Source: Acholeplasmatales bacterium
Lineage (GTDB): Bacteria > Bacillota_I > Bacilli_A > Acholeplasmatales > JAEDCM01
Reading direction: 5' to 3'
Assembly: GCA_017961685.1 (NCBI GenBank)
Contig: JAGCWW010000082.1
Location: 1-64,000, forward strand
DNA: 64,000 bases
The notes under the pieces were generated by a model. It made no database searches, was not told the DNA's origin, and worked only from the letters and a program-made list of their open reading frames with translations. A program made the translations under genes and the position numbers. Of the stretch, positions 1 through 13,214 are shown piece after piece (position 1 is the first letter of the stretch; the number at the start of each line of letters is the position of its first letter).

Positions 1-439
1 TTTTAATAGTATTATCTAAGCTATGATTTTTTATTTTGGATATATATTCTAGATAAATACTTGAATTTGAATCTATACCCAGTTCTATTAATATGTCTTT
101 AATTATTTTTACCTTATCAGAATCATCTATGATGGATGGTGATTCATTAAAACCTAATAAATAATAGAAATCTTTAATACATTCATAGCAAAAAGCATGA
201 AAGGTATATACATTTTCAAATGTAGATACTTTTTTTATTCTTTCTTTCATTTCTTTGCTTGCTTTATTAGTAAATGTAAAAGCAATTATAGTATTAGGAT
301 TAATACCTTCTTCTAATAATTTCATTATTCTATTTGTTAGAACTTTTGTTTTACCTGTACCTGCACCAGCCATAACTAATACTTTATGATTAGTAGTAAA
401 GACTGCTTGTTTTTGTTTATCATTTAGTTCTTCAAACAT
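1..439 (-). CDS. UvrD/PcrA-like superfamily I helicase, N-terminal part (cut by window edge)
   Basis: About 146 residues are visible, starting MFEELNDKQKQAV, a Q-motif for adenine recognition. Walker A follows (GAGTGKT, about residues 26-32), then motif Ia (AFTFTNKASKEM) and the TFHAFC segment typical of UvrD/Rep/PcrA 3'-5' helicases. The gene runs off the left edge. Its ATG shares one base with the TAA of the upstream replication initiator gene, so the two are probably translationally coupled. Rep_trans plasmids need a PcrA-type helicase to unwind from the nick, so a dedicated helicase beside rep makes sense. The family call is firm. Whether the full protein also carries a nuclease domain cannot be seen. 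Confidence 0.9.
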   Translation of the reverse strand, partial: MFEELNDKQKQAVFTTNHKVLVMAGAGTGKTKVLTNRIMKLLEEGINPNTIIAFTFTNKASKEMKERIKKVSTFENVYTFHAFCYECIKDFYYLLGFNESPSIIDDSDKVKIIKDILIELGIDSNSSIYLEYISKIKNHSLDNTIK

Positions 440-1569
440 TAGAAAGGCATCTCCATTTCTTCTATCTTTAAAAACAAATTAGTTCTTAGAGTAGCAAATT
501 CTTCATCTGTATATGGTTTAAGATTCATTTGGTATAAAAACATATTAAATCTTTTAAGTTTCTTCTTATCAAAGTTAGATAACTTATATAATACCTTTAG
601 CATTTCATAAAAGAATGTTTCATAGTTAGCCTTACATTGAGCAAGTCTAACCATTAAATAGAAAGCTGCTTTAGGTTCAATATAATTGAAACTTGATTCA
701 TATGAGAATATTTTTTCATCAGGATTTTTAATAATCCCTTTCTTTACTCCACCCAAAAAATCAGTCCATGATTGATCTGTATCTATATGCCCTTGATTCC
801 TTGCGTTATTATTATTGTCCTGTTTAATATCTAATAGTCCATATAGAACTTCAAATGCAAATAAGCGCATATTGAAGCCATATTGTAATTCATTTGTATC
901 GTAATAATCAGTTAAAAAGTTATATACAATTGCATTTGCTCTATCATCTCTAAATCTCATTTCATATCTTACCCAATAATCTTCTGCGATTTCTTTTCCT
1001 TTATTTATTTGTTCTATCTTTTTGTCATAAATACATAACTGTGTTGGTGATTTAGTTGATCCAAAAGTTAAAGATAAACCAGTTTCTATAAAACCAATAG
1101 GCCTTGGTGGTTTGTTAAAGATAGATGTATATTGTTTAATCTTTATTTTGCCGTATAGTTTGCATAAAGGCATTTCTTCTCCTGAATAATCATCTATGGC
1201 AACATCTATTCTCTTGAATGTACCATTTAGCCTCATCAGATACAAGAATAAATCTTTCCATGTTTTATCTTGATTTCTTCTTTCAAAATCTCTACATCCT
1301 TCTCCTTTAAACTCTAAATGGCATGTTCTATAACCTGTATCATTTTCAGGTCCAGATAATCTTAAAGTCATTGAATCACCTAATGCATATTGATATTTAT
1401 ATCTTAGAGTTGAATAATCTTCTCTATTTACTTCCATAAAATTAACGTTTAAATAATTTGAAATCATTTTAACTGTATCAAGGACTACTGCAAGCTCATT
1501 ATCATCCGCCTCAACTATTAATGGAAATGTAACACTCAAGTAGTCTATTTTTATTTCTTTATCCTCCAT
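439..1569 (-). CDS. rep: Rep_trans-family replication initiation factor (rolling-circle Rep / MobT-like relaxase)
   Basis: This 376-aa protein fits the replication initiation factor family that includes pT181 RepC and the Tn916 Orf20/MobT proteins. Visible signatures are FKRIDVAIDD (acidic metal-site-like motif, about residues 119-127) and FGSTKSPTQLCIYDKK followed by WVRYEMRFRDDRA. The tyrosine of YDK is one candidate nucleophile, but this is not proven from sequence. The ATG at 1569 is chosen because AAGGAG lies 9 bases upstream; an in-frame TTG further upstream abuts that site. A pT181-like origin hairpin lies about 65 bp upstream, and the helicase gene overlaps the stop. It probably nicks a plasmid, IME or ICE origin. 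Mobilisation rather than replication is possible. Confidence 0.88.
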   Translation of the reverse strand: MEDKEIKIDYLSVTFPLIVEADDNELAVVLDTVKMISNYLNVNFMEVNREDYSTLRYKYQYALGDSMTLRLSGPENDTGYRTCHLEFKGEGCRDFERRNQDKTWKDLFLYLMRLNGTFKRIDVAIDDYSGEEMPLCKLYGKIKIKQYTSIFNKPPRPIGFIETGLSLTFGSTKSPTQLCIYDKKIEQINKGKEIAEDYWVRYEMRFRDDRANAIVYNFLTDYYDTNELQYGFNMRLFAFEVLYGLLDIKQDNNNNARNQGHIDTDQSWTDFLGGVKKGIIKNPDEKIFSYESSFNYIEPKAAFYLMVRLAQCKANYETFFYEMLKVLYKLSNFDKKKLKRFNMFLYQMNLKPYTDEEFATLRTNLFLKIEEMEMPF

Positions 1570-1618
1570 AATTAACAACTCCTTTCATAATAGTTCATAT
1601 AAGGCAGCTAAGGACGGT

Positions 1619-1660
1619 TTGCGACACGACAGAGGGGCTATTAGTAATAGCCCCATCTGC
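1619..1660 (-). other. Candidate rolling-circle double-strand origin (nick-site hairpin)
   Basis: A 10-bp perfect inverted repeat (1634-1643 with 1645-1654, GGGGCTATTA / TAATAGCCCC) is extended by an imperfect outer stem (GACACGACAGA against the CTGCC..TGTGT side). On the minus strand the tip reads GGCTATTACTAATAGCC, close to the pT181 nick hairpin GGCTACTCTAATAGCC. It lies just upstream of the rep start on the same strand. The fold and placement are seen directly. Origin function and a nick before AATA are inferred from the pT181 family. Confidence 0.65.
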
Positions 1661-1764
1661 CTTGTGTTACGTAAACCTTTACCCTTAGCAGATATCTTAT
1701 ATTTATATAAATGTATTTTTAAAACTTTATTCTTATTTTATTATTTCATTATGTTTTCTTCATT

Positions 1765-1821
1765 AATAGCACCTCCATTTTCTTTTCTATATTTTAATAA
1801 TAGTATGGTGCTATTGTCGTG
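1765..1821. repeat. Second inverted repeat near the rep origin (possible Rep-binding or single-strand-origin element)
   Basis: AATAGCACC (1765-1773) and GGTGCTATT (1807-1815) form 9-bp arms around a 33-nt spacer. The motif CACGACA beside the origin hairpin (1625-1631) recurs inverted here as TGTCGTG (1815-1821). The rest of the 1570-1924 gap shows no convincing gene. Function is inferred only from position near rep. Confidence 0.35.
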
Positions 1822-1852
1822 TGCGAAGGGAAAAATGAATATTTATTCAAAA

Positions 1853-1887
1853 GCAAAAAAAAGACTAAATTTTTCACAATTTAGTCT
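1853..1887 (-). terminator. Rho-independent terminator of the toxN gene
   Basis: On the minus strand AGACTAAAT pairs with ATTTAGTCT (9 bp, 8-nt loop) and is followed by a run of T. It lies just past the toxin stop codon. Confidence 0.8.
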
Positions 1888-1924
1888 ACAAATTTTAAAA
1901 TTATAAAGGAATGTTACAAGTATA

Positions 1925-2527
1925 TTATTTTTTATTCTCTTGTATTCCTATCCATTCTTTGCATTTTTCTTCTGCTAATTTATAATTTACCCAATAACTA
2001 GCATATTTTCTTTCTTCCTCTGTTAATGATGAAGGACTATTCAATGAAGCTATTTTAGTATTATACATTTTATTAACTCTATTGTTAATAATCTTTAATG
2101 TATTCTCTTTATTTACCCAATTCATCAAATCAGTAAAATCTGCTTTAAATTTAGGATTTGGTTCTGAAGATATATCATATTCAATAACCGCTTGACTAGG
2201 AATAGGAATCATGCAAGCAGTAACCAATATAGATGTAAGTTTTTCATTTCCATCCTTGTCTCTTTCGATAAATTCTATATCAAACTTTGAACGTTTAATT
2301 TTTCTTATACCACTAGCATTAGTATAAGTTTTGCCATGTTTGCTCATTTCTTTAGATCCTTTGTGAATAGGAATATAATATAAGTATTCTCCTACAGTTA
2401 AACAAACGCCGACATATTTTCTTCCACCATTAGTACTTAACCCTATTTTTGAATCTCGAACATTCGATAATCTAGGATCTTTCTTTAAAAAATCTATATA
2501 ATTTGGATCTACATTTATTAATCTCAT
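1925..2527 (-). CDS. toxN: ToxN/AbiQ-family endoribonuclease toxin (type III toxin-antitoxin)
   Basis: This 200-aa protein resembles the ToxN/AbiQ RNase family. An N-terminal INVDPNYIDFLKK matches the YxxYLK opening. KYVGVCL (37-43) is followed by YYIPIHKGSKEMSKHG, the position of the P(L/I)xxSKxxH active-site stretch. MIPIP (106-110) and a helical C-terminus ending in a KxxEEKCKEW-type tail complete the match. Start ATG 2527 has AGAAAGGAG 5 bases upstream. The upstream context is what makes the call: tandem 38-nt repeats, then a terminator, then this gene, exactly the type III layout. The toxin would cut cellular mRNA and be held inactive by repeat RNA, giving abortive phage defence or element maintenance. 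Confidence 0.85.
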   Translation of the reverse strand: MRLINVDPNYIDFLKKDPRLSNVRDSKIGLSTNGGRKYVGVCLTVGEYLYYIPIHKGSKEMSKHGKTYTNASGIRKIKRSKFDIEFIERDKDGNEKLTSILVTACMIPIPSQAVIEYDISSEPNPKFKADFTDLMNWVNKENTLKIINNRVNKMYNTKIASLNSPSSLTEEERKYASYWVNYKLAEEKCKEWIGIQENKK

Positions 2528-2551
2528 AAAATCTCCTTTCTATAAATTAAA

Positions 2552-2573
2552 AAAGGTAGAGTAATCTACCTTT
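2552..2573 (-). terminator. Attenuating terminator between antitoxin RNA and toxN
   Basis: AAAGGTAGA and TCTACCTTT form a 9-bp stem with a 4-nt loop, followed on the minus strand by six T. In known type III systems a terminator in this position lets most transcripts end after the antitoxin, setting excess antitoxin over toxin. Confidence 0.85.
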
Positions 2574-2582
2574 AATAAATCT

Positions 2583-2708
2583 GCACTTATGGTAGCAATT
2601 CACCTTTTGTTTGTAACCTCACATTTATAGTTGTGAATTACTTTTTGTATGTAACCTTGCACTTATGGTAGCAACTCACCTTTTGTAAATTAAAGTATTT
2701 CCTACTTC
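2583..2708 (-). ncRNA. toxI: Type III antitoxin RNA: about 2.8 tandem repeats of about 38 nt
   Basis: Three adjoining repeat units start (plus-strand view) at 2583, 2620 and 2659; the first and third are exactly 76 nt apart, and the last is partial, ending near 2686. Units share ..TTAT..TAG....CACCTTTTGT..GTAACCT. On the RNA strand each unit can form a small stem whose bases co-vary: TTGC/GCAA in one unit, TCACA/TGTGA in another. Loop bases (ACC or AACU) can pair with downstream GGU(U), as needed for an H-type pseudoknot. ToxI and AntiQ are likewise tandem 35-36-nt repeats with pseudoknots. Transcript start is inferred from the promoter at 2715-2742. Confidence 0.82.
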
Positions 2709-2714
2709 AATTAT

Positions 2715-2742
2715 ATTATAACACATTTTTAAGCAATGTAAA
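2715..2742 (-). promoter_or_regulatory. Promoter of the type III toxin-antitoxin operon
   Basis: TTTACA (-35, 2742-2737), a 16-bp spacer and a perfect TATAAT (-10, 2720-2715) on the minus strand point into the repeat array. No other promoter is needed for antitoxin and toxin. Confidence 0.75.
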
Positions 2743-2909
2743 GATATTACTTAACATAACATATTTTTCAAATTTAATAATCTGTTTTTTTACGTGTCCT
2801 TATTATTTTATAGGTAATAAGATTAGAATTCCATTTGATTTATTAAATAAAACAATACAATATTTACAATAATTAACAAAAAAATAGTACAATTTTTCTC
2901 ATAATATTT

Positions 2910-3209
2910 TTATTCTGTTTTATCATCTTGTTGTCTTAATTCAAGCTTTAACATATTCTCAATATTTGACAACAATTCTTTCACTTTCGTATAAATTGCA
3001 ATACACATTTTATCATTTTTCTTTTCATCATCACTCGTTTTATCAATTATTTCAAATGTATCTTCTATATTATAGTCTTTGAAAAACGAAATATATAAAT
3101 CTGAACCATTCAGTATTTTTTCAGTAACGCTAATCTCTATTAATTTATTATCATTTTCTTTAAAAATATAGTTAGTAGCATCTTTATAAAAATTAATAAC
3201 TCTTTTCAT
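2910..3209 (-). CDS. Small hypothetical protein, last gene of the ATPase-TOPRIM-PHP operon
   Basis: This 99-aa acidic, lysine-rich protein matches no family I recognise. It has no signal peptide or membrane segment. Its start overlaps the end of the PHP-ATPase gene by 17 bp, so it is probably co-translated with it. Being the last, small gene of a likely defence operon, it could be an accessory or inhibitory subunit, but that is only inference. The 2761-2909 stretch downstream shows nothing recognisable. Confidence 0.65.
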   Translation of the reverse strand: MKRVINFYKDATNYIFKENDNKLIEISVTEKILNGSDLYISFFKDYNIEDTFEIIDKTSDDEKKNDKMCIAIYTKVKELLSNIENMLKLELRQQDDKTE

Positions 3210-5568
3210 ATTTTTTATATCTCTCCTTTAACGAATCTATTCCGCCCTCAATATTATCAGCAACTATCTTTAATATATCTGTTTTGTCATCTTTAAATTC
3301 TAAAGCTCCATTTTCAATTGTAATTTTACCACTATTATCATCTTTTTTTAGAAAAATAATATTGTCTACATCCAAATTTACAATAAATTGTGGATTATGT
3401 GTTATCAATAATATTTGTCTATTATTTGAAAGAGTTTTGAAATTTGCTAATAATTTCTTTTTAATTGATGGTTGTGAGACATCATCTTCAGGCTGATCTA
3501 TAATGTAAATGCCTGATTTCTTAGTATCATTAGCAAGTAAATCAAAATATATTTGCGCATTAGCACCATTTGATAATTCTTTAGTTACATCAGTGTCCTT
3601 AGAATTGTTTATTACATATTTTATTTTTAAATCAGCATTAATTTTGGTGCTTATTGCATTTTTGTAGTGTTCATAAATGTCGTCTATAGTTTGATCTCCA
3701 GTTTTTATGTTTCCCTCAAATTCAATTGGATCAACATCAGTAATATTTTTTATATCTTTCTTATACGTAGAAGCTAGAGGATATTTTAATAAATCAAAAA
3801 TATAATTACTATCTATTTTAAGTATTGATGGCTTACATATAAATCTATATTCACCATTATTATTTATTTCTGGTTCTATAAGGGTTTCGATTATAGTTAA
3901 ATCAAAATCATTAAAGTTCTGATTTATTTTAACAATATTTTTTATTGTTTCAGCTAATTCACTAAACTTTAAATTATATGCTTCTTTATTCTTTTGCATT
4001 TCAGTTTTTGTATTATTTAATTCATTATTTAGGCTTAATATCTCAGCGTTTATTAATTCTACTTTTCTTTCTTCTAATAATACACCTTTCTTTAAGTTAA
4101 CATATTTAGTTTTTAAAACTATTAAATATTGTTTATATTCATTTAGTTTTGCTTTTTCTTCTAAATTAATTAATTTGTTATCTATAACATTATCTGTATC
4201 TATTATAGTTTTATCTATACTTGTTATTAAATCAGTATAATTTTTGATAATTGTTTTAAAATCAATTGTTATTTCATTAATTTGTAATGACATAGATTCT
4301 TCATGAATTTCAAATGTAATATCTGATAACTTCTTTAATTCTTGGCTTAATAACTTTTTATTTTTTAGAAAGGAAATATATTCCTCAACTTTTCTGTTTA
4401 TTTTTTCTTTAACAATATTATAATTTGGCTCAACAGGATAATATTCATTCAAAAAATCTTTAGATTTAGTTTTATTATTTGTAAAAAGTTCTCTAATATT
4501 TCCTTGCTTATCAAAATGTCTTATTTGTTCTTGGGTAATTCGAGTTTTAATTTTAATTTTATTTTCATCTAAATATTTATCATATGCTTCTTTTAATGAT
4601 TTGTTTTTTTCTATTTCTCTATAATCAGTCATTTTATGTAATAGCAATGATTTTCCAATAGAATTGTCTCCAATTATAGCATTAATACCTTTTGATAATT
4701 CTATATCATAATCGGTTTCATTAATTGATAATTGAATTTTTTCAATTGGTGCATTTGCTGAAAAAAAGCTACTAACCCCAATTTTAATTCTACTAGAATC
4801 AGTGATTGCCATCATTGTTCCTCTAAATGATGGTAAACATTTTAAATAGCTAAATTCAAAATCACCATCATCACTTTTTTCTGGATAATTATTCCACTCA
4901 TGACAATCACTACCTGTAATAAATCTCATTTTTTCTAATTTCTTTTGTTGGTTTTCAATATAATAATTATTAAATATTTCATTCCTTTTGTTTTTGAATT
5001 CATATGCTTCAAAATAATCAACAAAAACTAATTTTTCCAATTCATCAATTCCTAATGTATTGGCATCATGCTTTCTTGGCTCTTTACTACCTAAACTTTC
5101 TTTTTGATGAGCTATTAAAATAGTATCAGTTCCGATTGTTCTTAATATATCTATATACTTTTCTTCTGAAAAAGAATTATCTAAATTATATAATGGTTTA
5201 TCATTAGAAGTATCATAAATTAATGGTTGAATTGATTTAATTTTTTCTTCATCAGAATCATCAAATAATGTAACAATATGTAATACTTGACCTAGAATAG
5301 TAACGCTAAACTCAACACCAGGCAATACTTTTTTTATACAATTACTATTATTATTCTCTTCTTTTTTCAATTTTGTATACAGATTATAATCAAAATTATC
5401 ATGATCTGTTATAGATAACATATTAACGCCATTATCATTTAGTTTTGAAATCAAAATAGGTAGATTATCTATAGTACCATATTTAACTTTATCATGGTCT
5501 TTAAAATGTGAAGCATTTGAATGTATATGAAAATCCACTTTTAAAGCTTTCTTAACTATTCTATCCAT
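3193..5568 (-). CDS. PHP-domain / SMC-like ATPase fusion protein (TrlF-like)
   Basis: This 791-aa protein joins a PHP phosphoesterase domain (about 1-260) to an ABC/SMC-type ATPase. PHP metal motifs are DFHIHSN (12-18), SITDHDN (52-58), an H in LIAHQKE (about 154) and TGSDCH (218-223). Walker A is GDNSIGKS (300-307). A long Lys/Glu/Asn-rich coiled coil (about 385-560) separates it from a signature-like ELSNGANAQ, a Walker B with IIDQPEDD and an H-loop LLITHNP near the C-terminus. IDQPED is typical of SMC-like defence ATPases. Start ATG 5568 has GAAGGTGAT upstream. It sits 20 bp after the TOPRIM gene. A nucleic-acid or nucleotide cleaving role is inferred from the domains. Confidence 0.85.
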   Translation of the reverse strand: MDRIVKKALKVDFHIHSNASHFKDHDKVKYGTIDNLPILISKLNDNGVNMLSITDHDNFDYNLYTKLKKEENNNSNCIKKVLPGVEFSVTILGQVLHIVTLFDDSDEEKIKSIQPLIYDTSNDKPLYNLDNSFSEEKYIDILRTIGTDTILIAHQKESLGSKEPRKHDANTLGIDELEKLVFVDYFEAYEFKNKRNEIFNNYYIENQQKKLEKMRFITGSDCHEWNNYPEKSDDGDFEFSYLKCLPSFRGTMMAITDSSRIKIGVSSFFSANAPIEKIQLSINETDYDIELSKGINAIIGDNSIGKSLLLHKMTDYREIEKNKSLKEAYDKYLDENKIKIKTRITQEQIRHFDKQGNIRELFTNNKTKSKDFLNEYYPVEPNYNIVKEKINRKVEEYISFLKNKKLLSQELKKLSDITFEIHEESMSLQINEITIDFKTIIKNYTDLITSIDKTIIDTDNVIDNKLINLEEKAKLNEYKQYLIVLKTKYVNLKKGVLLEERKVELINAEILSLNNELNNTKTEMQKNKEAYNLKFSELAETIKNIVKINQNFNDFDLTIIETLIEPEINNNGEYRFICKPSILKIDSNYIFDLLKYPLASTYKKDIKNITDVDPIEFEGNIKTGDQTIDDIYEHYKNAISTKINADLKIKYVINNSKDTDVTKELSNGANAQIYFDLLANDTKKSGIYIIDQPEDDVSQPSIKKKLLANFKTLSNNRQILLITHNPQFIVNLDVDNIIFLKKDDNSGKITIENGALEFKDDKTDILKIVADNIEGGIDSLKERYKKYEKSY

Positions 5569-5588
5569 ATTATCACCTTCTTAAATAT

Positions 5589-6371
5589 CTATCCAACATT
5601 TGAAAACCATTCACTAACGCAATAATAATTATCTATCTTGATTGTTAATTTATTGATAAAAGCTATAAACACATATACAACAGTCGTAAAATATCTATAT
5701 ATTACATATTTATTATCTTCATCATTTATTCTTTCGTTATACTTATTAATATAATCTATGACTAATTTTGGATGTTCCATAACATTTAGTTCATCAAAAT
5801 CATTTTTGTTTTTGTCAAGATAATATATACATAGTTTTTCAAAATTATCCACAATATAATCATTAATACTTTTCTTATTTGCGTTATAGTATTCGTTCAA
5901 AACTTTTTTATAATCTTTTATATGCTTAAATCTTTCTTCTTTTCTACTAGTATCAAAATCACCTAATACTTCTATGCATGGTGAAGATAACAGTAATAGC
6001 CCTGATGATGTTTCATCATTAAATTTAGAAAACATTTCATTAATATCTTCACAATCATTATGATCAACATCATACATTAAAAATATTCCTTGAAATAATT
6101 CACTATGAATACTTAATAGTTTCTCAAATGAATCAGTGTTCTCATTATATACTTTTAAGAAGTCATGTATTCTATTTCTAGGTCCTTCAATTATAACTAC
6201 ATTATTCTTTTCGTTTTCAAATTCTAATTCAGATAATTGATTAAAATTTTCAAAATCTAATTTTTCATCACATTTTATTACATTATATCCATATTTTTCT
6301 AGAACTCTTTTAAATATTGTTGGTTCAGTTTTTTCACCTTCAACTATTAACAAAAACCTATTCTTCGCCAT
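5589..6371 (-). CDS. TOPRIM-domain protein (RloB/AbiLii/OLD-like putative nuclease)
   Basis: The N-terminus FLLIVEGEKTEPTIF (6-20) carries the TOPRIM glutamate. MYDVDHND (99-106) supplies the DxD metal motif, and SSPCIEVLGD (129-138) matches the conserved SxPCxE block of RloB-like proteins. At 260 aa the protein is family-sized. Its start overlaps the upstream ATPase gene by 14 bp, the usual coupling of ATPase-TOPRIM pairs such as RloA-RloB, AbiL and PARIS (AriA-AriB). In those families the ATPase restrains the nuclease until infection. Nuclease activity here is inferred. A related protein is encoded at 38305-39045. Confidence 0.82.
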   Translation of the reverse strand: MAKNRFLLIVEGEKTEPTIFKRVLEKYGYNVIKCDEKLDFENFNQLSELEFENEKNNVVIIEGPRNRIHDFLKVYNENTDSFEKLLSIHSELFQGIFLMYDVDHNDCEDINEMFSKFNDETSSGLLLLSSPCIEVLGDFDTSRKEERFKHIKDYKKVLNEYYNANKKSINDYIVDNFEKLCIYYLDKNKNDFDELNVMEHPKLVIDYINKYNERINDEDNKYVIYRYFTTVVYVFIAFINKLTIKIDNYYCVSEWFSNVG

Positions 6372-7506
6372 TTATTGCCTCATCAAACATAGCAGACAAA
6401 TACATCTTTTCAATATTATTAACTTCTCTAATATTTTGATAGATGTTTGATAGTCTACAATATTTAGATTTTCCTTCATACCATTTTGCGAAATATATTT
6501 GATCTGGTCTTAATAATTGTAAAATATATGTATTATGTGATGAGAAGAATACTTGTATATTCTTTGATTTTATTACATTTAAAAATGATTTAATTGCACT
6601 AGGATGTAAAGCTTGTTCTAATTCATCAATAAATATAATACCATTTTCAGGCATAGATAAAAGAATTGATAGCATTACACTTTGATTTTTCATACCTTCT
6701 GATATGAATTCAAATGGTAATTCTCCTTTGAAATCTTTGCCTTCAATTTCAATAAAATATTTATTAGTTTCCATAATATTAGCTGTTCTTAAAGGCTTTT
6801 TAACAATTGAATATATTGGAAACTCATTATATCCTTTTAATATTTCTTTTACTTCTTCTGATTTGTTAACAAGCAAATCTAGGAAATTAACATCATTAAA
6901 AATTCTTGATCTTACAAAAGCGCCTCTGGAAATAAACGCTGGTGTTATTATTGTATATGAACTTATATATGTATAAGCTTTTTGTATATCATCATCATTT
7001 ATTTCACTTGAAGCAAGGCTTCTTAATGTCGATATTAATGTTGAGACATCTTGAACTTTTCTATTCTTTTTTCTATAAATAAAATTATTTAAATCACGTT
7101 CAAAAACAACATCGTTAGATGCTTTTAAAAATTCTTTAACTATTCCTTTGAAGCTTGATGTTTGAATAAAGTAATTATATTCAATATTCCCTATTTTAAA
7201 GAATAATTCTACACTTCCTCTTACCAATTCATCATTCTTTTTTGTGCTTCTATTGTATGTATCAAACAAAAAGTTATTTACAATAAATGGTCTAAGATTT
7301 GTAGCTGGTTCATTCATTAAAGCAACAAGTTGTTCCATTGTTCTAATAACAGATGTTTTACCACTACCATTATGTCCATAAATAGCAACAGGATTAACTA
7401 TTGTTCCATTTACATTATCTTCTAAAAATTTATATTTATCTTTTTTAAAATCTATCTCACATGTATCAATTGAATTTACATTTTTTATTATGATTTTTTC
7501 TAACAT
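6358..7506 (-). CDS. AAA/ABC-type ATPase of an RloA/AbiL/PARIS-like pair
   Basis: This 382-aa ATPase opens LEKIIIKNVNSI, as RecF/AAA_15-type proteins do. It has Walker A GHNGSGKT (44-51), a Walker B IIFIDELEQALHP and an H-switch FFSSHN, then LLRPDQIYF and a conserved NIEKMYLSAMF tail. Start ATG 7506 is chosen over an upstream one because GAGGTGA lies 5 bases before it; this also matches the length of its homologue at 39026-40165. It leads an operon with the TOPRIM, PHP-ATPase and 99-aa genes. The likely role is a sensor or regulator ATPase holding the TOPRIM effector. Confidence 0.85.
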   Translation of the reverse strand: MLEKIIIKNVNSIDTCEIDFKKDKYKFLEDNVNGTIVNPVAIYGHNGSGKTSVIRTMEQLVALMNEPATNLRPFIVNNFLFDTYNRSTKKNDELVRGSVELFFKIGNIEYNYFIQTSSFKGIVKEFLKASNDVVFERDLNNFIYRKKNRKVQDVSTLISTLRSLASSEINDDDIQKAYTYISSYTIITPAFISRGAFVRSRIFNDVNFLDLLVNKSEEVKEILKGYNEFPIYSIVKKPLRTANIMETNKYFIEIEGKDFKGELPFEFISEGMKNQSVMLSILLSMPENGIIFIDELEQALHPSAIKSFLNVIKSKNIQVFFSSHNTYILQLLRPDQIYFAKWYEGKSKYCRLSNIYQNIREVNNIEKMYLSAMFDEAINGEE

Positions 7507-7520
7507 AACTTCACCTCTTC

Positions 7521-7592
7521 TGTATATTTTATACACTTAATATTATAACACATTTTTTTGTTATTTCAATCGTGAAATGTATATTTTATACA
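7521..7592 (-). promoter_or_regulatory. Promoter with two identical palindromic operators for the ATPase-TOPRIM-PHP operon
   Basis: The -35 TTGAAA (7569-7564), 16-bp spacer and TATAAT (7547-7542) read toward the ATPase gene. The exact palindrome TGTATATTTTATACA (6-bp arms, TTT centre) occurs twice: at 7521-7535 over the expected start point and at 7578-7592 just above the -35. Two identical sites on either side of a promoter suggest repression by a dimeric regulator. No matching regulator is obvious nearby. Confidence 0.65.
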
Positions 7593-7635
7593 GATTCATT
7601 ATTAATCTATCGATATTTATGATTATTTTAAAAGC

Positions 7636-7995
7636 TTATTGGACTTTAAATCCATTTTTGTTACACAATACGATAAATTCTTTAAGCATGTTTTCTATAA
7701 CAAAATCGTTAATTGTCGACTTATTCCTTAATGCCCAATAAATATCAACACTATTCTTGGTAAAAATCAATGCAAATTCGTCACCAAAAAAAGTCTTTAA
7801 ATAATCATCAATCTTGTTTTCATATCTAATGTACATATTTGAATCATAATAACCAGGCTCAAGATGTTTTAGGCAACGTTGAAAATGTATTATCTGTTTT
7901 AACAATTCTTCCTTTTTCTTGAAAATCATCTTCTTTTCTCTAATCATTTCTACAATTTTATTAATAAGCTCAAATGCTTTTTCTAAAAGTTTCAT
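7636..7995 (-). CDS. Hypothetical helical protein
   Basis: This 119-aa protein matches no family I recognise. The N-terminal third (LEKAFELINKIVEMIREKKMIFKK-type, heptad-like) looks helical or coiled-coil, and there is no signal peptide. The start is supported by AGGAGAT upstream. It lies upstream of the defence operon on the same strand, but the operator-bearing promoter separates them. Confidence 0.6.
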   Translation of the reverse strand: MKLLEKAFELINKIVEMIREKKMIFKKKEELLKQIIHFQRCLKHLEPGYYDSNMYIRYENKIDDYLKTFFGDEFALIFTKNSVDIYWALRNKSTINDFVIENMLKEFIVLCNKNGFKVQ

Positions 7996-8097
7996 ATTTT
8001 TAATCTCCTAATTCTAAATGTTATATATGTCAAAAATCATATATCTTTATTATACATCTTAATTAAATTCATATATAACTTGAACAAGAAAATTTTT

Positions 8098-8124
8098 TTA
8101 AAAAAATGGTGACTAATTCACCAT
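8098..8124 (-). terminator. Terminator after a gene remnant
   Basis: ATGGTGA and TCACCAT form a 7-bp stem with a 5-nt loop. On the minus strand it is followed by a run of T. The only coding trace upstream of it is the short fragment at 8148-8198. Confidence 0.65.
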
Positions 8125-8147
8125 TCCTTACATTATTATTTTTAATC

Positions 8148-8198
8148 TTATTCTATTTTAGCCAAATATTTTCTCGCCTCTTGAAAACTAATTCTCTT
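8148..8198 (-). pseudogene. Possible C-terminal remnant of a lost gene
   Basis: A short open frame reads KRISFQEARKYLAKIE then stop, and it is followed by a good terminator at 8098-8124. An in-frame stop precedes it, so only a tail remains. The composition is protein-like, but the family is not identifiable. It fits deletion inside a decayed island. Confidence 0.3.
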
Positions 8199-8221
8199 TT
8201 ATAATCATCTTTTTTAAAAAA

Positions 8222-8245
8222 AAGAATGGAGAACACCCCATTCTT
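8222..8245 (-). terminator. Terminator of the acyltransferase gene
   Basis: AAGAATGG and CCATTCTT form an 8-bp stem with an 8-nt loop. A run of nine T follows on the minus strand, 20 bp past the stop codon. Confidence 0.8.
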
Positions 8246-8265
8246 ATATATTGTTTTTTAATAAT

Positions 8266-9300
8266 TTATAAATTGGTACAGTTATTCGACTTTTCATTAG
8301 AATATTCTTTGTTTTTCTTCTTTGTAAAAATTTTCCCGTATAAAATATATTTTGAAAAATATTCCATTAAAATATTGCCTAGTAAAACAACTATTCCAAT
8401 TGATATTAGTAATATTACAAATATGTTTATTCTATTGTTCCAAAAACAATCAGTTGAATCTAATCCTTTAACAATAAAGCCATGTAGCAAGAATATACTA
8501 ATTGTATTTCCACCTATTCTTGTTAAGAAAGGTATTTTTTTATTAAATCTAATTGTAAATATAAAGAATCCTATCCATGATATTGCGCAAAATATTATAA
8601 TTAATTTTATGAATGGATTATATAAGCCTTTATAAGGATAAGATCCATATAACATCTGTGCAGTAATATTCTTTTTTAGAATGATTATTATTATAGAACA
8701 TATCGTTAAACATAAGAAACTTAGTTTAATAATTATATTATATTTTTTTTCTATTTTTATTTCTTTCAAACTTAAAATCTTTTTGGCATAGAAACCACAT
8801 ATAAAATATGGCAAGAAAGAAACAAATCTAGAAACTGATAAATAATATCCCTGAGTTGAGTCAAAAGGGAAAGCAAAATACATTATTAAGCTTATTACAA
8901 CTGCACTTACTATTTTTATGATGCTTTTTTTATTTAATTCAAATATGTCTAATAACGGAATTAAGAATAAGTAGAATATATAACACAATAAATACCATAA
9001 TATCCAATAAGGCGTTGTCAATTGATAGTTAGTTTTTCCGCTATATATAATATTAATATAAAATATGTAAATAACTTGAAATATTAAATATAAGATGATA
9101 AAATTAACTATTCTTTTTTTACTAAATTTAGCGAAAAAGCCAGTAATAAATATCAGCAACGGCATATGAAACGAATATATAATTCTATAGATAGTATTAT
9201 TTGATGTATGCAAAATTGATATTTCCAACATGTGACCGAATACGACTAAAATAATTGCAATTAGTTTAATGTTATCAAACGCATAATCTCTATTATTCAT
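8266..9300 (-). CDS. Membrane acyltransferase family 3 protein
   Basis: This 344-aa protein has about ten hydrophobic segments. It opens DYAFDNIKLIAIILVVFGHMLE, with the conserved active-site-like His (H23), then FHMPLLIFITGFFAK and YWILWYLL, all typical of Acyltransferase_3 (OafA / fucose 4-O-acetylase-like). Such proteins move an acetyl or acyl group onto surface glycans or cell-wall sugars. The gene starts 8 bp after the secreted protease gene and has only a weak ribosome site, so it is probably coupled to it. The acceptor cannot be told from sequence. Confidence 0.85.
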   Translation of the reverse strand: MNNRDYAFDNIKLIAIILVVFGHMLEISILHTSNNTIYRIIYSFHMPLLIFITGFFAKFSKKRIVNFIILYLIFQVIYIFYINIIYSGKTNYQLTTPYWILWYLLCYIFYLFLIPLLDIFELNKKSIIKIVSAVVISLIMYFAFPFDSTQGYYLSVSRFVSFLPYFICGFYAKKILSLKEIKIEKKYNIIIKLSFLCLTICSIIIIILKKNITAQMLYGSYPYKGLYNPFIKLIIIFCAISWIGFFIFTIRFNKKIPFLTRIGGNTISIFLLHGFIVKGLDSTDCFWNNRINIFVILLISIGIVVLLGNILMEYFSKYILYGKIFTKKKNKEYSNEKSNNCTNL

Positions 9301-9308
9301 TTTTCTTT

Positions 9309-11852
9309 TTACCCATAATAATTAAGATTTGTATAAGTAATTGTAGCCTCAATAAATCCACTACTTGATCCTTTATATACTAATAAATCCAATGTCCCGC
9401 CTGAATTTGATCTTTTAGCAACTAAATCACAATATCCATCACCATTTACATCCATAACATAGCAATCAGAATAATCATTATAATCTGGTATATATTGGCT
9501 GCTATTCAAAACTACTGCAGAAGAGAAACTACCAGTAGATGAGCCATAATATGCAGAAAGCTTTCTATAACTATAATTGTTATTGTGTATTATTAAGTCA
9601 GATTTTCCATCATTGTTTACATCCCCCATAAACACACAATCATTTTCGTTATATATATCTGTTGATGAAAGCGAATATGTTGATGATGCATCGTTTATAT
9701 ATGGCGATGAAGACTTGCCTAAGTATGTTAATGCATAAATATATGCTCCATATTGTTTAAACATAACAACAAAATCATCCTTCCCATCACCATTTACATC
9801 TGAAACATAAAACTTGCTTGGATTTGTGTATGGATAATATGTTCTTGAACTATTCAATTGTGTTGCCTCATTATATCCTGATGATGTTGCTATGTAGATA
9901 TGTAATCTTCTATAAACTGTACCACTTGATGTTCTAGTCGTATGAACTAACAAATCAGATTTACCATCACCATTAAAATCTCCTGCAAATACAGAATCAT
10001 TATGTTTATAAGAATAAGTGCTAGATAGAGCAGTTGTTGTAGCATCTGTTATATAAGGGCTAGCGCTCTTTCCTTTATATACAAGTGCTCCTCTATTATA
10101 TGAACTATTTTCATAAAAGACAATAAAATCATCCTTTCCATCACCATTTTGATCTGCTACTAAGAATTTACATGGATAAGCTATCGGATCGTGATATCTT
10201 GTACTTGATAGATTAACTCCTGTCTCAAATGTTCCGTTACTCTTTCCTTTATAAATTAATAATTGTCTATAATTTCCATTACACCAGTGTATTAGTACAT
10301 CTGTCCTACCATCACCATTGAAATCTCCTACAAAGGCTGGGTCATCATAGAAAAAGTTATTTGAGAAATTAGTAACTATTGGGCTGCTAAATGCTCCAGT
10401 TGAAGTGCCCAAAAGTGTAGTTAATGATCTTGTGCCATTATTGTTACAAGACATTATCAAATCATCGTATCCATCTCCATTTACATCACCTGTAAAAGTT
10501 CTAGGTTTAGCAGCAGCTCTTAGTGCTTTATAAGCATTTAGTCTTCCTTGTGAAACGCAATAGGATGCTAATGCTGATACATAATCAACATTATTCATTA
10601 TTAATTCCTTTATCTCTTCCGGCTTTGCTTCAGGTTTTACACTCAACATAAGTGCAGCTGTTCCGGTAACAAAAGGCGTTGCCATAGATGTCCCGCTCTT
10701 AAATCCATAGCTATTAGATGGAATTGTACTATATATTCCATCTCCTGGTGCAAACAAGTCAACATACGAACCATACTTGGAGTCTGATGCTTTTTGATCG
10801 CTACTAGTAGAGTTTCCAACTACTATAGTATTCTTTGCCTTATAATATGCTGGATATTCAGGAACATTTCCGATATCAGGGTCTATATTACCTGCAGCGC
10901 ATACCAATAATCCTGGGTAATTTCCGATTGCTAGTTGATATCCAGTATCAGGATCTTCTGACCCTCCGCTATAATTAAGCAAAGAAATATTATTTGCTGT
11001 TGCATAATCAATTGCCTTAATATCGTAAGATGTAGTTCCACTTCCATTATTATCAAATACTTTTAATAAAACTAAATAAGCACCCCAGCATGAGCCAGCA
11101 ATACCCTTATTATTATTACCAACTGCTGCGATAATGCCAGAAACATGTGTACCATGTCCATCAACATCGGTCGGATTAGATATACTTACTGAACCGCCAG
11201 TTGAAAAATCACGATGTAGGCTAGAATAAACATTAGCACTTAAATCCTCATGTGTTGAAGAAATTCCAGTGTCCATAACGCCAATTAGTATTTTCCTATT
11301 AGTCTGAATATAATCCCACGCTGAAGGTAATTCTATTTTTTCTTGTCCCCATCTATGACTATAGTAATCACCATAATATGTATCATTAGGGATAGTTTGT
11401 GTTGATGTTATATAATTCGGCCCAGCATAAAGAATGTCATCATCTTTTTCTAGCGTCCTGATTGCATCAATAACACTATAATCATTTGAAGTGTCAATTG
11501 TTAATTTTAAAATTTGATGAAATGAATAAAAATCTAAGTTTTTCCTAATATCATACTCATCTTCAATAAAATCAAAATTACCCTTCAAGCTCTCTAAATA
11601 AAGATTTTTTGTCTCAGAAGTTAAATCCTCTACTTTTATACAGTTAACCTCCTTGAAATAATTTGAATCATAGTCTAACATTTCAATGCTTTTTTTATTT
11701 TTAAAAGCTACAATAATGCTGTCAGATGAATATAAAGTCTCATTCGAAATTGTTGCGTATAACTTTTCCTCATCCAATTCCTTGGCATATCCTCTGCCAG
11801 TTGATAAGCCAAGTGTCAATAAACAAATAACTAACAAAATAATTTTTTTCAT
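9309..11852 (-). CDS. Secreted S8 subtilisin-like protease with C-terminal FG-GAP/VCBS repeats
   Basis: This 847-aa protein has a signal peptide (MKKIILLVICLLTLGLSTG, cleavage about residue 23). A propeptide-like stretch runs to about residue 155. The subtilase domain has Asp194 (GVMDTGI), His233 (DGHGTHVSG), oxyanion Asn322 (CAAGNID) and Ser389 (GTSMATP), so the full triad is present. From about 455 there are at least seven FG-GAP-type units with DxNxDGxxD calcium loops (GDVNGDGYDD, GDFNGDGRTD, GDVNNDGKSD and others), suggesting a beta-propeller. No LPXTG or membrane anchor is seen. It probably degrades or binds extracellular substrates. The start has a GGGAGAAG site. Confidence 0.92.
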   Translation of the reverse strand: MKKIILLVICLLTLGLSTGRGYAKELDEEKLYATISNETLYSSDSIIVAFKNKKSIEMLDYDSNYFKEVNCIKVEDLTSETKNLYLESLKGNFDFIEDEYDIRKNLDFYSFHQILKLTIDTSNDYSVIDAIRTLEKDDDILYAGPNYITSTQTIPNDTYYGDYYSHRWGQEKIELPSAWDYIQTNRKILIGVMDTGISSTHEDLSANVYSSLHRDFSTGGSVSISNPTDVDGHGTHVSGIIAAVGNNNKGIAGSCWGAYLVLLKVFDNNGSGTTSYDIKAIDYATANNISLLNYSGGSEDPDTGYQLAIGNYPGLLVCAAGNIDPDIGNVPEYPAYYKAKNTIVVGNSTSSDQKASDSKYGSYVDLFAPGDGIYSTIPSNSYGFKSGTSMATPFVTGTAALMLSVKPEAKPEEIKELIMNNVDYVSALASYCVSQGRLNAYKALRAAAKPRTFTGDVNGDGYDDLIMSCNNNGTRSLTTLLGTSTGAFSSPIVTNFSNNFFYDDPAFVGDFNGDGRTDVLIHWCNGNYRQLLIYKGKSNGTFETGVNLSSTRYHDPIAYPCKFLVADQNGDGKDDFIVFYENSSYNRGALVYKGKSASPYITDATTTALSSTYSYKHNDSVFAGDFNGDGKSDLLVHTTRTSSGTVYRRLHIYIATSSGYNEATQLNSSRTYYPYTNPSKFYVSDVNGDGKDDFVVMFKQYGAYIYALTYLGKSSSPYINDASSTYSLSSTDIYNENDCVFMGDVNNDGKSDLIIHNNNYSYRKLSAYYGSSTGSFSSAVVLNSSQYIPDYNDYSDCYVMDVNGDGYCDLVAKRSNSGGTLDLLVYKGSSSGFIEATITYTNLNYYG

Positions 11853-11976
11853 TTTCTTCTCCCTTCCTACAATTATTTTTGATATCGCAATATCAATTAT
11901 ATTTTAACATACATTTTAGAAAAGAAAAAGCCATCACATTTTATAAAAATCTTTCATTCATAAAAAAAGTTAAAAA

Positions 11977-11996
11977 AAGCTTATAAAAATAAGCTT
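11977..11996 (-). terminator. Terminator of the tRNA-Arg gene
   Basis: AAGCTTAT and ATAAGCTT form an 8-bp stem with a 4-nt loop, followed by seven T on the minus strand, 12 bp past the tRNA 3' end. Confidence 0.8.
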
Positions 11997-12008
11997 ATTA
12001 GAAATAAC

Positions 12009-12085
12009 TGGCGTTCTGGGGCGGATTCGAACCGCCGATCTTCAACTTAGGAGGTTGGTGCATTATCCAGCTATGCTACCAGAAC
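12009..12085 (-). tRNA. tRNA-Arg (anticodon CCT)
   Basis: The acceptor stem GTTCTGG/CCAGAAC is a perfect 7 bp. The anticodon loop CTCCTAA gives anticodon CCT, the T-arm is GGCGG-TTCGAAT-CCGCC, and the 3' CCA is encoded (GCCA). It reads AGG codons. The gene sits at the edge of the accessory region, with partial copies of itself upstream, so it is a likely integration target. Confidence 0.93.
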
Positions 12086-12180
12086 ATATATCTTTCCCCT
12101 TATTTAATCTCGTTTTTATGCAAATAGGGGAATAAACTAAGGGGAATGATTTTTAATAAATATCAAATTATATATTAGTT

Positions 12181-12244
12181 AAGCCAATTATTTTTGGATA
12201 TAACGTCCCCTTAGGAGGTTACTGCATTATCCAGCTATGCTACC
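12181..12244. other. Hybrid attachment site: element core joined to a partial tRNA-Arg copy
   Basis: Positions 12210-12244 match tRNA positions 12046-12080 at 33 of 35 bases (anticodon loop to the 5' end), while the tRNA 3' half is missing. To the left, 12181-12218 matches the attP-like copy at 12346-12384, including TGGATATAAC. The junction falls at CTTAGGAGG. This is what an attL or attR junction looks like. Read directly; the recombination history is inferred. Confidence 0.65.
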
Positions 12245-12287
12245 GAAACATACTGTTTTTAGGCCAAAAGGAGAGAGTTGATATCCA

Positions 12288-12312
12288 TTTGGGTGACAAA
12301 TTTTGGGTGACA
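12288..12312. repeat. Direct repeat TTTGGGTGACA x2 (possible integrase arm sites)
   Basis: Identical 11-mers start at 12288 and 12302, 14 bp apart, between the hybrid and attP-like sites. Short direct repeats beside the core are typical arm-type sites for tyrosine integrases. No integrase gene is seen in the window. Confidence 0.4.
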
Positions 12313-12345
12313 TTTTTTCTATAAAGTGCCATTTATGGCTTAACT

Positions 12346-12399
12346 AAGCCAATTAATTTTGGATATAACTTTCCCCTTAGGAGGAACTTGTTATATCCA
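12346..12399. other. attP-like site with core-binding inverted repeat
   Basis: Perfect 10-bp arms TGGATATAAC (12360-12369) and GTTATATCCA (12390-12399) flank a 20-bp centre that contains CCCCTTAGGAGG. CTTAGGAGG is identical to the anticodon-loop region of the tRNA-Arg gene. The symmetry fits two integrase core sites around a crossover region. Confidence 0.55.
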
Positions 12400-12431
12400 T
12401 TTAACTAACCGGGCCTATAAAGTAAAAATAA

Positions 12432-12454
12432 GGGCTAATCTTTGCGATTAACCC
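12432..12454 (-). terminator. Terminator after the 247-aa membrane protein gene
   Basis: GGGCTAATC pairs with GATTAACCC (one mismatch, 5-nt loop), and an AT-rich T-containing tract follows on the minus strand. Confidence 0.7.
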
Positions 12455-12470
12455 AATATTATACTTTTTA

Positions 12471-13214
12471 TTAATCTCTATCCTCTTTAGTGTATGTCCA
12501 TACTACCATTGCAGCACCACCAAGAACAGCAGTTAATGATAGAATGAAGTAAACAGGAGCAACTTTTACGGCAGTCTTATGAGCTTTTTCTGTATTCTTT
12601 AATTCGTTAAGACGGTTTTCGTTATTAACCTTTAATACATATAAATCATATAAAGTTTTCATACCGTTTGCCTTAGCTTCAGCATGCCATGCTTGATCTT
12701 CTTCACTAGCATATTGTAGGATGATAACATCACTTATCCAGTAGAATCTTTCTACATCTTCTTCAGTGAAAGTTGTACCTTCAAGTTTTTCAATATATTT
12801 ACCAGTATATTTATCAACGCTACTTTGAGCATCCGCAACCATTTCAGAATCGCTTAATGTTGTAGCTGTACCATTAATGTGTCTCTTTAAAGATTTAACA
12901 CCACCAGTTAAAGAAATTAAGAACCAGATGCTTAATAATACGCCTACAGCACATGTACCGATGTGAACGATTTTATTTCTTTCATCACCTAATAATAGGA
13001 TAATTGCAGTGATTCCAAGGAATATGAAGATCAATGCAATGATTAGGAATCCAGTTGGATAATAGATGTAATTAATAAATTTTGTAAATCCTTTTGAATT
13101 TTCAATTAATTTTACATCGCTAAAGTTCTTTGCAGAAAAGAAAAAGAATACTATTGTTGTCACTAGTGCGATAGCTGTTAATCCTATTGCACAATATTTT
13201 AGAGCTGTTTTCAT
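12471..13214 (-). CDS. Hypothetical four-helix membrane protein
   Basis: This 247-aa protein has hydrophobic segments at about 8-28, 52-76, 84-105 and 217-238. A hydrophilic stretch between the third and fourth holds conserved-looking acidic and aromatic residues. No family is recognised. A good AAGGAGAG ribosome site precedes the ATG at 13214. It stands alone between the tRNA locus and the flavoprotein gene, with its own terminator. Confidence 0.75.
   Translation of the reverse strand: MKTALKYCAIGLTAIALVTTIVFFFFSAKNFSDVKLIENSKGFTKFINYIYYPTGFLIIALIFIFLGITAIILLLGDERNKIVHIGTCAVGVLLSIWFLISLTGGVKSLKRHINGTATTLSDSEMVADAQSSVDKYTGKYIEKLEGTTFTEEDVERFYWISDVIILQYASEEDQAWHAEAKANGMKTLYDLYVLKVNNENRLNELKNTEKAHKTAVKVAPVYFILSLTAVLGGAAMVVWTYTKEDRD

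Follow-up and report, generated by a model that had tools for sequence, protein, structure and literature searches.

Integration into tRNA genes with loss of the target has been described as tRNA-dependent lysogeny of actinobacteriophages (Guerrero-Bustamante and Hatfull 2024, PMC10865867). These phages use a tyrosine integrase and a short core of 8-17 bp in a tRNA gene, the target tRNA is not rebuilt, and a complete tRNA of the same isotype is carried by the element near attP, which has paired arm-type sites. The tandem use of a plasmid-borne tRNA as attB for a second copy appears in that work as speculation only, and tests outside the actinobacteriophages were called for. Prophage Lj965 of Lactobacillus johnsonii is cited in the text of the same paper as a possible non-actinobacterial case.

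We examined a tRNA-Arg(CCU) locus in 64,000 nucleotides from an Acholeplasmatales bacterium (contig JAGCWW010000082.1, positions 1 to 64,000, forward strand; hereafter the window). According to the original prediction, this locus held an intact attB, a hybrid junction and an attP-like core side by side. Our analysis indicates, with a probability of roughly 0.88, that mobile elements which replace the target tRNA integrated here twice, one after the other, and left a fossil stack, a reading based on the sequence identity of the tRNA halves, the element arms, the switches at the core, the empty and filled sites and the integrases of relatives. The tRNA-Arg(CCU) gene of this gut-type bacterium has thus been cut at least twice by mobile elements. 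The features of the locus are collected in Table 1.

Table 1. Features of the tRNA-Arg(CCU) locus and of the region to its left (window positions)
Feature	Position	Strand	Basis or remark
Accessory genes to the left of A; possibly the body of the youngest element(s)	1..11852	-	
UvrD-like helicase start	1-438	-	accessory region
Rep_trans/MobT-like protein	439-1578	-	accessory region
AbiQ/ToxN	1925-2527	-	accessory region
AbiL/PARIS-like genes	3193-7536	-	accessory region
Acyltransferase, S8 protease	within 1..11852	-	accessory region
tRNA A, intact tRNA-Arg(CCU)	12009..12085	-	ARAGORN, Rfam; A and a near-identical 124-nt arm also in congener G002
Core CTTAGGAGG in anticodon loop of A; candidate attB for further insertion	12046..12054	.	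sequence
A element arm	12086..12209	.	nearly the same 124-nt segment after A in G002
Tandem arm-type repeats TAGGGGAAT/AAGGGGAAT of A arm	12125-12133, 12139-12147		sequence
Half-site TGGATATAAC of A arm	12195-12204		sequence
tRNA A' (CCU) 5' half, starting with core, displaced by A element	12210..12249	-	40/40 to A' of G002
Older A' element arm	12250..12375	.	homologous 126- and 127-nt arms after intact A' in G002
Tandem arm-type repeats TTTGGGTGACA of A' arm	12288-12298, 12302-12312		sequence
GGCTTAACTAAGCC hairpin of A' arm, with half-site TGGATATAAC	half-site 12360-12369		sequence
tRNA B 5' half, resident tRNA split first	12376..12414	-	same half in G001, G002; intact B types in relatives
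Terminator-like hairpin of neighbouring gene (12471-13214); chromosomal side of stack	12432..12454	-	

ARAGORN, Rfam and the sequence itself confirmed the tRNA-Arg(CCU) and the three related cores at the predicted positions. There is one tRNA in the region, and the core CTTAGGAGG occurs three times in the window (12046, 12210 and 12376) with the near-constant spacing of 164 and 166 bp. The 12210 copy is 36/40 identical to the 5' half of the intact tRNA A (33/35 on the span originally considered), which is far above chance, the best other ungapped 35-nt match being 22 in the 64-kb window and 20 in a shuffled window. However, this half was taken for a duplicate of the intact tRNA, and it proved to be the remnant of another gene, A', because it matches at 40/40 positions two intact A' genes of the congener G002 (contigs C7 and C18) as against 36/40 for A. 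G002 has intact A and A' on one contig and its second A' copy on contig C18.

The third site, proposed as an attP, is instead a second hybrid junction. An element arm lies to its left; to its right the sequence runs on as CTTAGGAGGAACTTGTTATATCCATTTAACTAACCGGGC, which is again a tRNA-Arg(CCU) 5' half, from a gene B. G001 and G002 have this B half too, with the same FAD-protein gene next to it. Judged by their sequences, the three cores belong to three tRNA-Arg(CCU) genes, A, A' and B, each core being part of the 5' half of a different one. The 10-nt arms TGGATATAAC (12360-12369) and GTTATATCCA (12390-12399) do form a perfect-arm palindrome with a 20-nt gap, found by pattern search only once in the 2.04-Mb assembly. 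The left one is element sequence, recurring before the 12210 core, in G002 and, more weakly, in G001; the right one, thought to be an attP arm, is the D-arm of tRNA B. Element arms compared with the inverted tRNA D-arm gave 126 matches against 93 +/- 4.5 for shuffled targets. A target-specific mirroring by the arms was rejected, and the palindrome at 12360-12399 is not evidence of specificity, because the own target was not favoured over other targets (p = 0.13).

The identity of the displaced halves could be followed in other species. Comparison over 40 nt was made for the six kinds of 5' half with an intact copy available elsewhere, and each of them (A', V, X, Y, S and B2) was 40/40 identical to an intact tRNA-Arg(CCU) of another species. 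The intact relatives of the B half, found in other genera of the order, were 30-34/40 identical, and B 3' halves compatible with the B 5' half were present in G002. In the window and in relatives, arms of 124-195 bp with paired tandem repeats lie between a tRNA or half and the next core; they often contain a GGCTT..AAGCC hairpin, and their repeat motifs vary between elements. By position and pairing, these repeats look like arm-type integrase sites.

A search for integrase homologues in 160 genomes of the order, all of them draft assemblies, found them in 10. The records with names were metagenome-assembled genomes under the labels Acholeplasmatales, Bacilli or Bacillales, and goat or sheep rumen was the source of several. 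Loci of the CCU group begin with the integrase and continue with a complete tRNA-Arg(CCU), an arm, the core CTTAGGAGG and a foreign tRNA-Arg(CCU) 5' half; an integrase or its remnant, followed by the complete tRNA and then by the core with a foreign half, was seen in G053, G135, G037, G128 and G146. The stack of G053 adjoins a full-length tyrosine integrase (PF00589, L046:728-2320), located before the tRNA, and homologues were also present in G135, G057 and G128. Read from the integrase side, the stacks are W, V half and X half in G053; X, Y half and B half in G037; X and B half in G057; S, Z half and B half in G135; V, B2 half and a decayed B half in G128; and W' and Z half in G146, where the same contig also has B2 and B half. 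G003 bears Y with an S half twice. In the stacks measured, 124-195 bp separated the complete tRNA from the core, the common core was CTTAGGAGG or slightly less, and the halves were unpaired with the adjacent intact tRNA. Acceptor stems differ among the complete tRNAs, each one being matched within its own gene.

The expectation that integrases would be found in relatives with the same core held for Acholeplasmatales relatives and failed for the genus of the window: no integrase of this family was found in G000, G001 and G002 (72-83% complete), including the sequence beside the core. An integrase of this genus, lost or acting in trans, would presumably work in the same way. In the viral contigs, integrase relatives were at most 37% identical and the far-arm pattern had no match; one match to the arm-core pattern lay in a phage gene without a nearby tRNA and was rejected as a probable chance hit.

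The arms of these elements change partner exactly at the core. This supports the original prediction that site-specific integration into the anticodon loop of tRNA-Arg(CCU) left scars here and displaced 5' halves. The V arm (149 nt, one mismatch) is joined to the B2 half in G128 and to the X half in G053, the X arm (195 nt) to the Y half in G037 and to the B half in G057, and the A arm to the A' half in the window and to the far arm of another cassette in G002. Genera g13 and g21 show the empty site, an intact B adjoining rpsL; in G128 a decayed B 5' half lies beneath the stack on the rpsL side, and in G135 rpsL is also found beyond the B half. At the other ends, 3' halves are fused to a conserved far arm (CTTAGGATTNAAACAAATCC...) in G037, G128, G135 and G057, and twice to a different one (TTAGGAGAATTTWTAATCATATGC) in G002. 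Pattern and family searches of the assembly of the window, in which the contig ends at window base 1, gave neither of the far ends, those with the 3' halves of A' and B.

Some loci depart from this simple arrangement. The segment L089:435-2091 of G128 has a B2 3' half, a sodium/proton antiporter gene and a B 3' half, an order that simple nesting does not fit and that likely arose by later recombination between cores. A tRNA-Arg(CCU) of another type stands beside rpsL in G049 and G055 (L131 and L132), where other genomes have B; these tRNAs may be replacements whose remnants have vanished, and no B remnant was recognised by eye at L131, L132 or L011, all with a tRNA-Arg(CCU) beside rpsL.

According to the mechanism that we propose, the attP of each element would have a short core, CTTAGGAGG, of about 9 bp, matching only the anticodon loop of tRNA-Arg(CCU), and each element would carry, 124-195 bp away, a complete tRNA-Arg(CCU) oriented like the target. 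The tyrosine integrase would cross attP with the resident tRNA gene, which would be cut in two and not rebuilt, its 5' half remaining at the end of the element where the new tRNA lies and its 3' half moving to the far end. The tRNA of the element would then take over, and its anticodon loop would be the next attB. The original prediction had the tRNA restored by recombination; instead, a whole tRNA-Arg gene on each element would replace the split one. In the window, an A' element would have split B, and an A element would then have split A'.

On this mechanism tRNA A is probably the replacement tRNA borne by the youngest element. No other CCU tRNA-Arg was found in the assembly (~82% complete), which also has two UCU and one ACG tRNA-Arg, so that the cell's only AGG-reading CCU copy now probably belongs to a mobile element. 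Promoter-like TATAAT hexamers ending 9-11 nt upstream precede the element-borne X, S, B2 and W; for tRNA A the search of the upstream sequence gave no sigma-70-like promoter. A may be expressed and the cell may rely on it, but the UCU tRNAs could also read AGG, so that A need not be essential.

A 5'-half fragment beside an intact tRNA is the usual signature of a conventional tRNA island, in which the element brings a copy of the 5' half, the same tRNA is rebuilt and the displaced 5' half lies at the other end; islands with 5' fragments are known, accounting for 159 of 3919 in Islander (PMC4383910). A form of this kind exists in the order, since in genus g13 relatives of the integrase adjoin tRNA-Arg(UCU), two of three with a near-identical downstream 5' half; at L082 and L085 the fragment next to the related integrases is identical to the intact gene at 40-41/43 positions, and these loci look like conventional islands, of the reversed type with a 5' fragment. 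Such an origin is very improbable for the locus of the window, whose half is not the cognate of the adjacent tRNA (36/40 to A, 40/40 to A'). Likewise, V, X, Y, S and W adjoin halves from clearly different tRNAs, and with the differing acceptor stems of the stacked tRNAs an exchange of halves would give no working tRNA. For the CCU stacks, the conventional island is refuted by the identities of halves and intact genes, as far as sequence comparison goes.

Three related cores at 164 and 166 bp could also recall a tandem tRNA-Arg array that arose by duplication and decayed without any mobile element, but this we regard as barely conceivable. Every half is cut at the same anticodon-loop core, a conserved arm with tandem repeats stands in place of the 3' half, the arms recur with different targets and next to tyrosine integrases, and 3' halves occur fused to a different conserved arm. 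The original prediction had named a decayed array with no strain variation as what would refute it, and the variation between strains at the core is real. It is also unlikely, if less so, that the integrations were true ones and that the stack is now inert, A being a resident chromosomal gene and not borne by an element. The integrase, the far end and a clear promoter were not found in the genome of the window, as this explanation would have it; however, A and the same arm are rearranged in G002, joined to the far arm of a cassette, which requires A to have moved together with its arm. We thus retain the stack of two integrations by tRNA-replacing elements as the best reading.

The carriers are of several kinds. 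The V element of G128 measures ~6.6 kb between its cores, and its genes include those for a MobL relaxase and the integrase. The S element of G135, open at a contig end, has genes for a helicase and a Rep_trans/MobT-like protein; the proteins tested from this carrier gave no phage match in Pfam or NCBIfam. The cassettes of G002 (2.5 and 1.7 kb) consist of small cargo genes, A' and arms, without integrase, and would need an integrase in trans or be deletion products. In L037:1414-5116 they stand in tandem, flanking an arm-core-far-arm junction, and their cargo includes paralogous small membrane proteins of 281 and 282 aa, 90% identical. The S (G135, L077) and X (G057, L078) elements are identical at 524/530 aa of the integrase and 188/195 nt (97%) of the arm; their tRNAs have only 60/77 bases in common, with matched changes in the acceptor stem, so that the tRNA looks, by sequence, like a swapped or fast-changing module.

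In the window, no integrase was found in the accessory region left of A, and no left end of an A element in positions 1-12000; the original prediction had placed the other island end left of the window. The Rep_trans protein and the helicase start are 37% and 49% identical, respectively, to those of G135. The left region is not confidently assigned to the A element, because the orientation of its genes relative to the tRNA is opposite to that in G135. At 1925-2700, repeats upstream of the ToxN/AbiQ-type toxin gene resemble a ToxI antitoxin RNA array. The AbiL- and PARIS-like genes (3193-7536), with an AriA-like ATPase and a RloB-like partner, lie near the tRNA-bearing element. Some AbiL/PARIS-type systems cut tRNAs, and by analogy a link between these genes and the element is possible.

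As a broader and tentative idea, which we rate as somewhat doubtful, the AGG-reading tRNA-Arg gene of the Acholeplasmatales may have passed into competing elements that serially replace each other's tRNA, among them cassettes that lack an integrase and are moved in trans. The tRNA on each element would then be a fast-changing module, which perhaps spares the element's own tRNA from its integrase. The stacks would document, in nature, how mobile DNA replaced a translation gene again and again, and they open two questions to experiment: how an element keeps from recombining with its own tRNA, and whether hosts come to depend on the element. They are also a warning that tools pairing a tRNA fragment with the nearest intact (cognate) tRNA would misplace such elements.

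No paper describing such serial stacks was found in a partial literature search. The islands of the Islander type (PMC4383910) are similar in the crossover at the anticodon loop and in the displaced tRNA fragment that marks the element end; they differ in that their fragment restores the same tRNA, while here it comes from a different one. Lj965, compared by description only, is a single prophage; the cited paper reports for it a target tRNA that is not rebuilt and a cognate tRNA that is carried. The closest likeness is to the tRNA-dependent lysogeny of actinobacteriophages (PMC10865867), with which the elements described here have in common a tyrosine integrase (here seen in relatives only), a short core in the tRNA gene (~9 bp), a target that is not rebuilt, a complete same-isotype tRNA near attP and putative paired arm-type sites. 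In contrast to those phages, the elements here have hosts of the order Acholeplasmatales; one carrier at least, with its MobL relaxase, is an integrative mobilizable element, others are small integrase-less cassettes, and the element-borne tRNA is itself split in natural stacks. These findings extend tRNA-dependent integration from actinobacteriophages to a distant bacterial order and to a relaxase-bearing element, and by analogy the Acholeplasmatales stacks look like natural instances of the proposed use of a plasmid-borne tRNA as attB.
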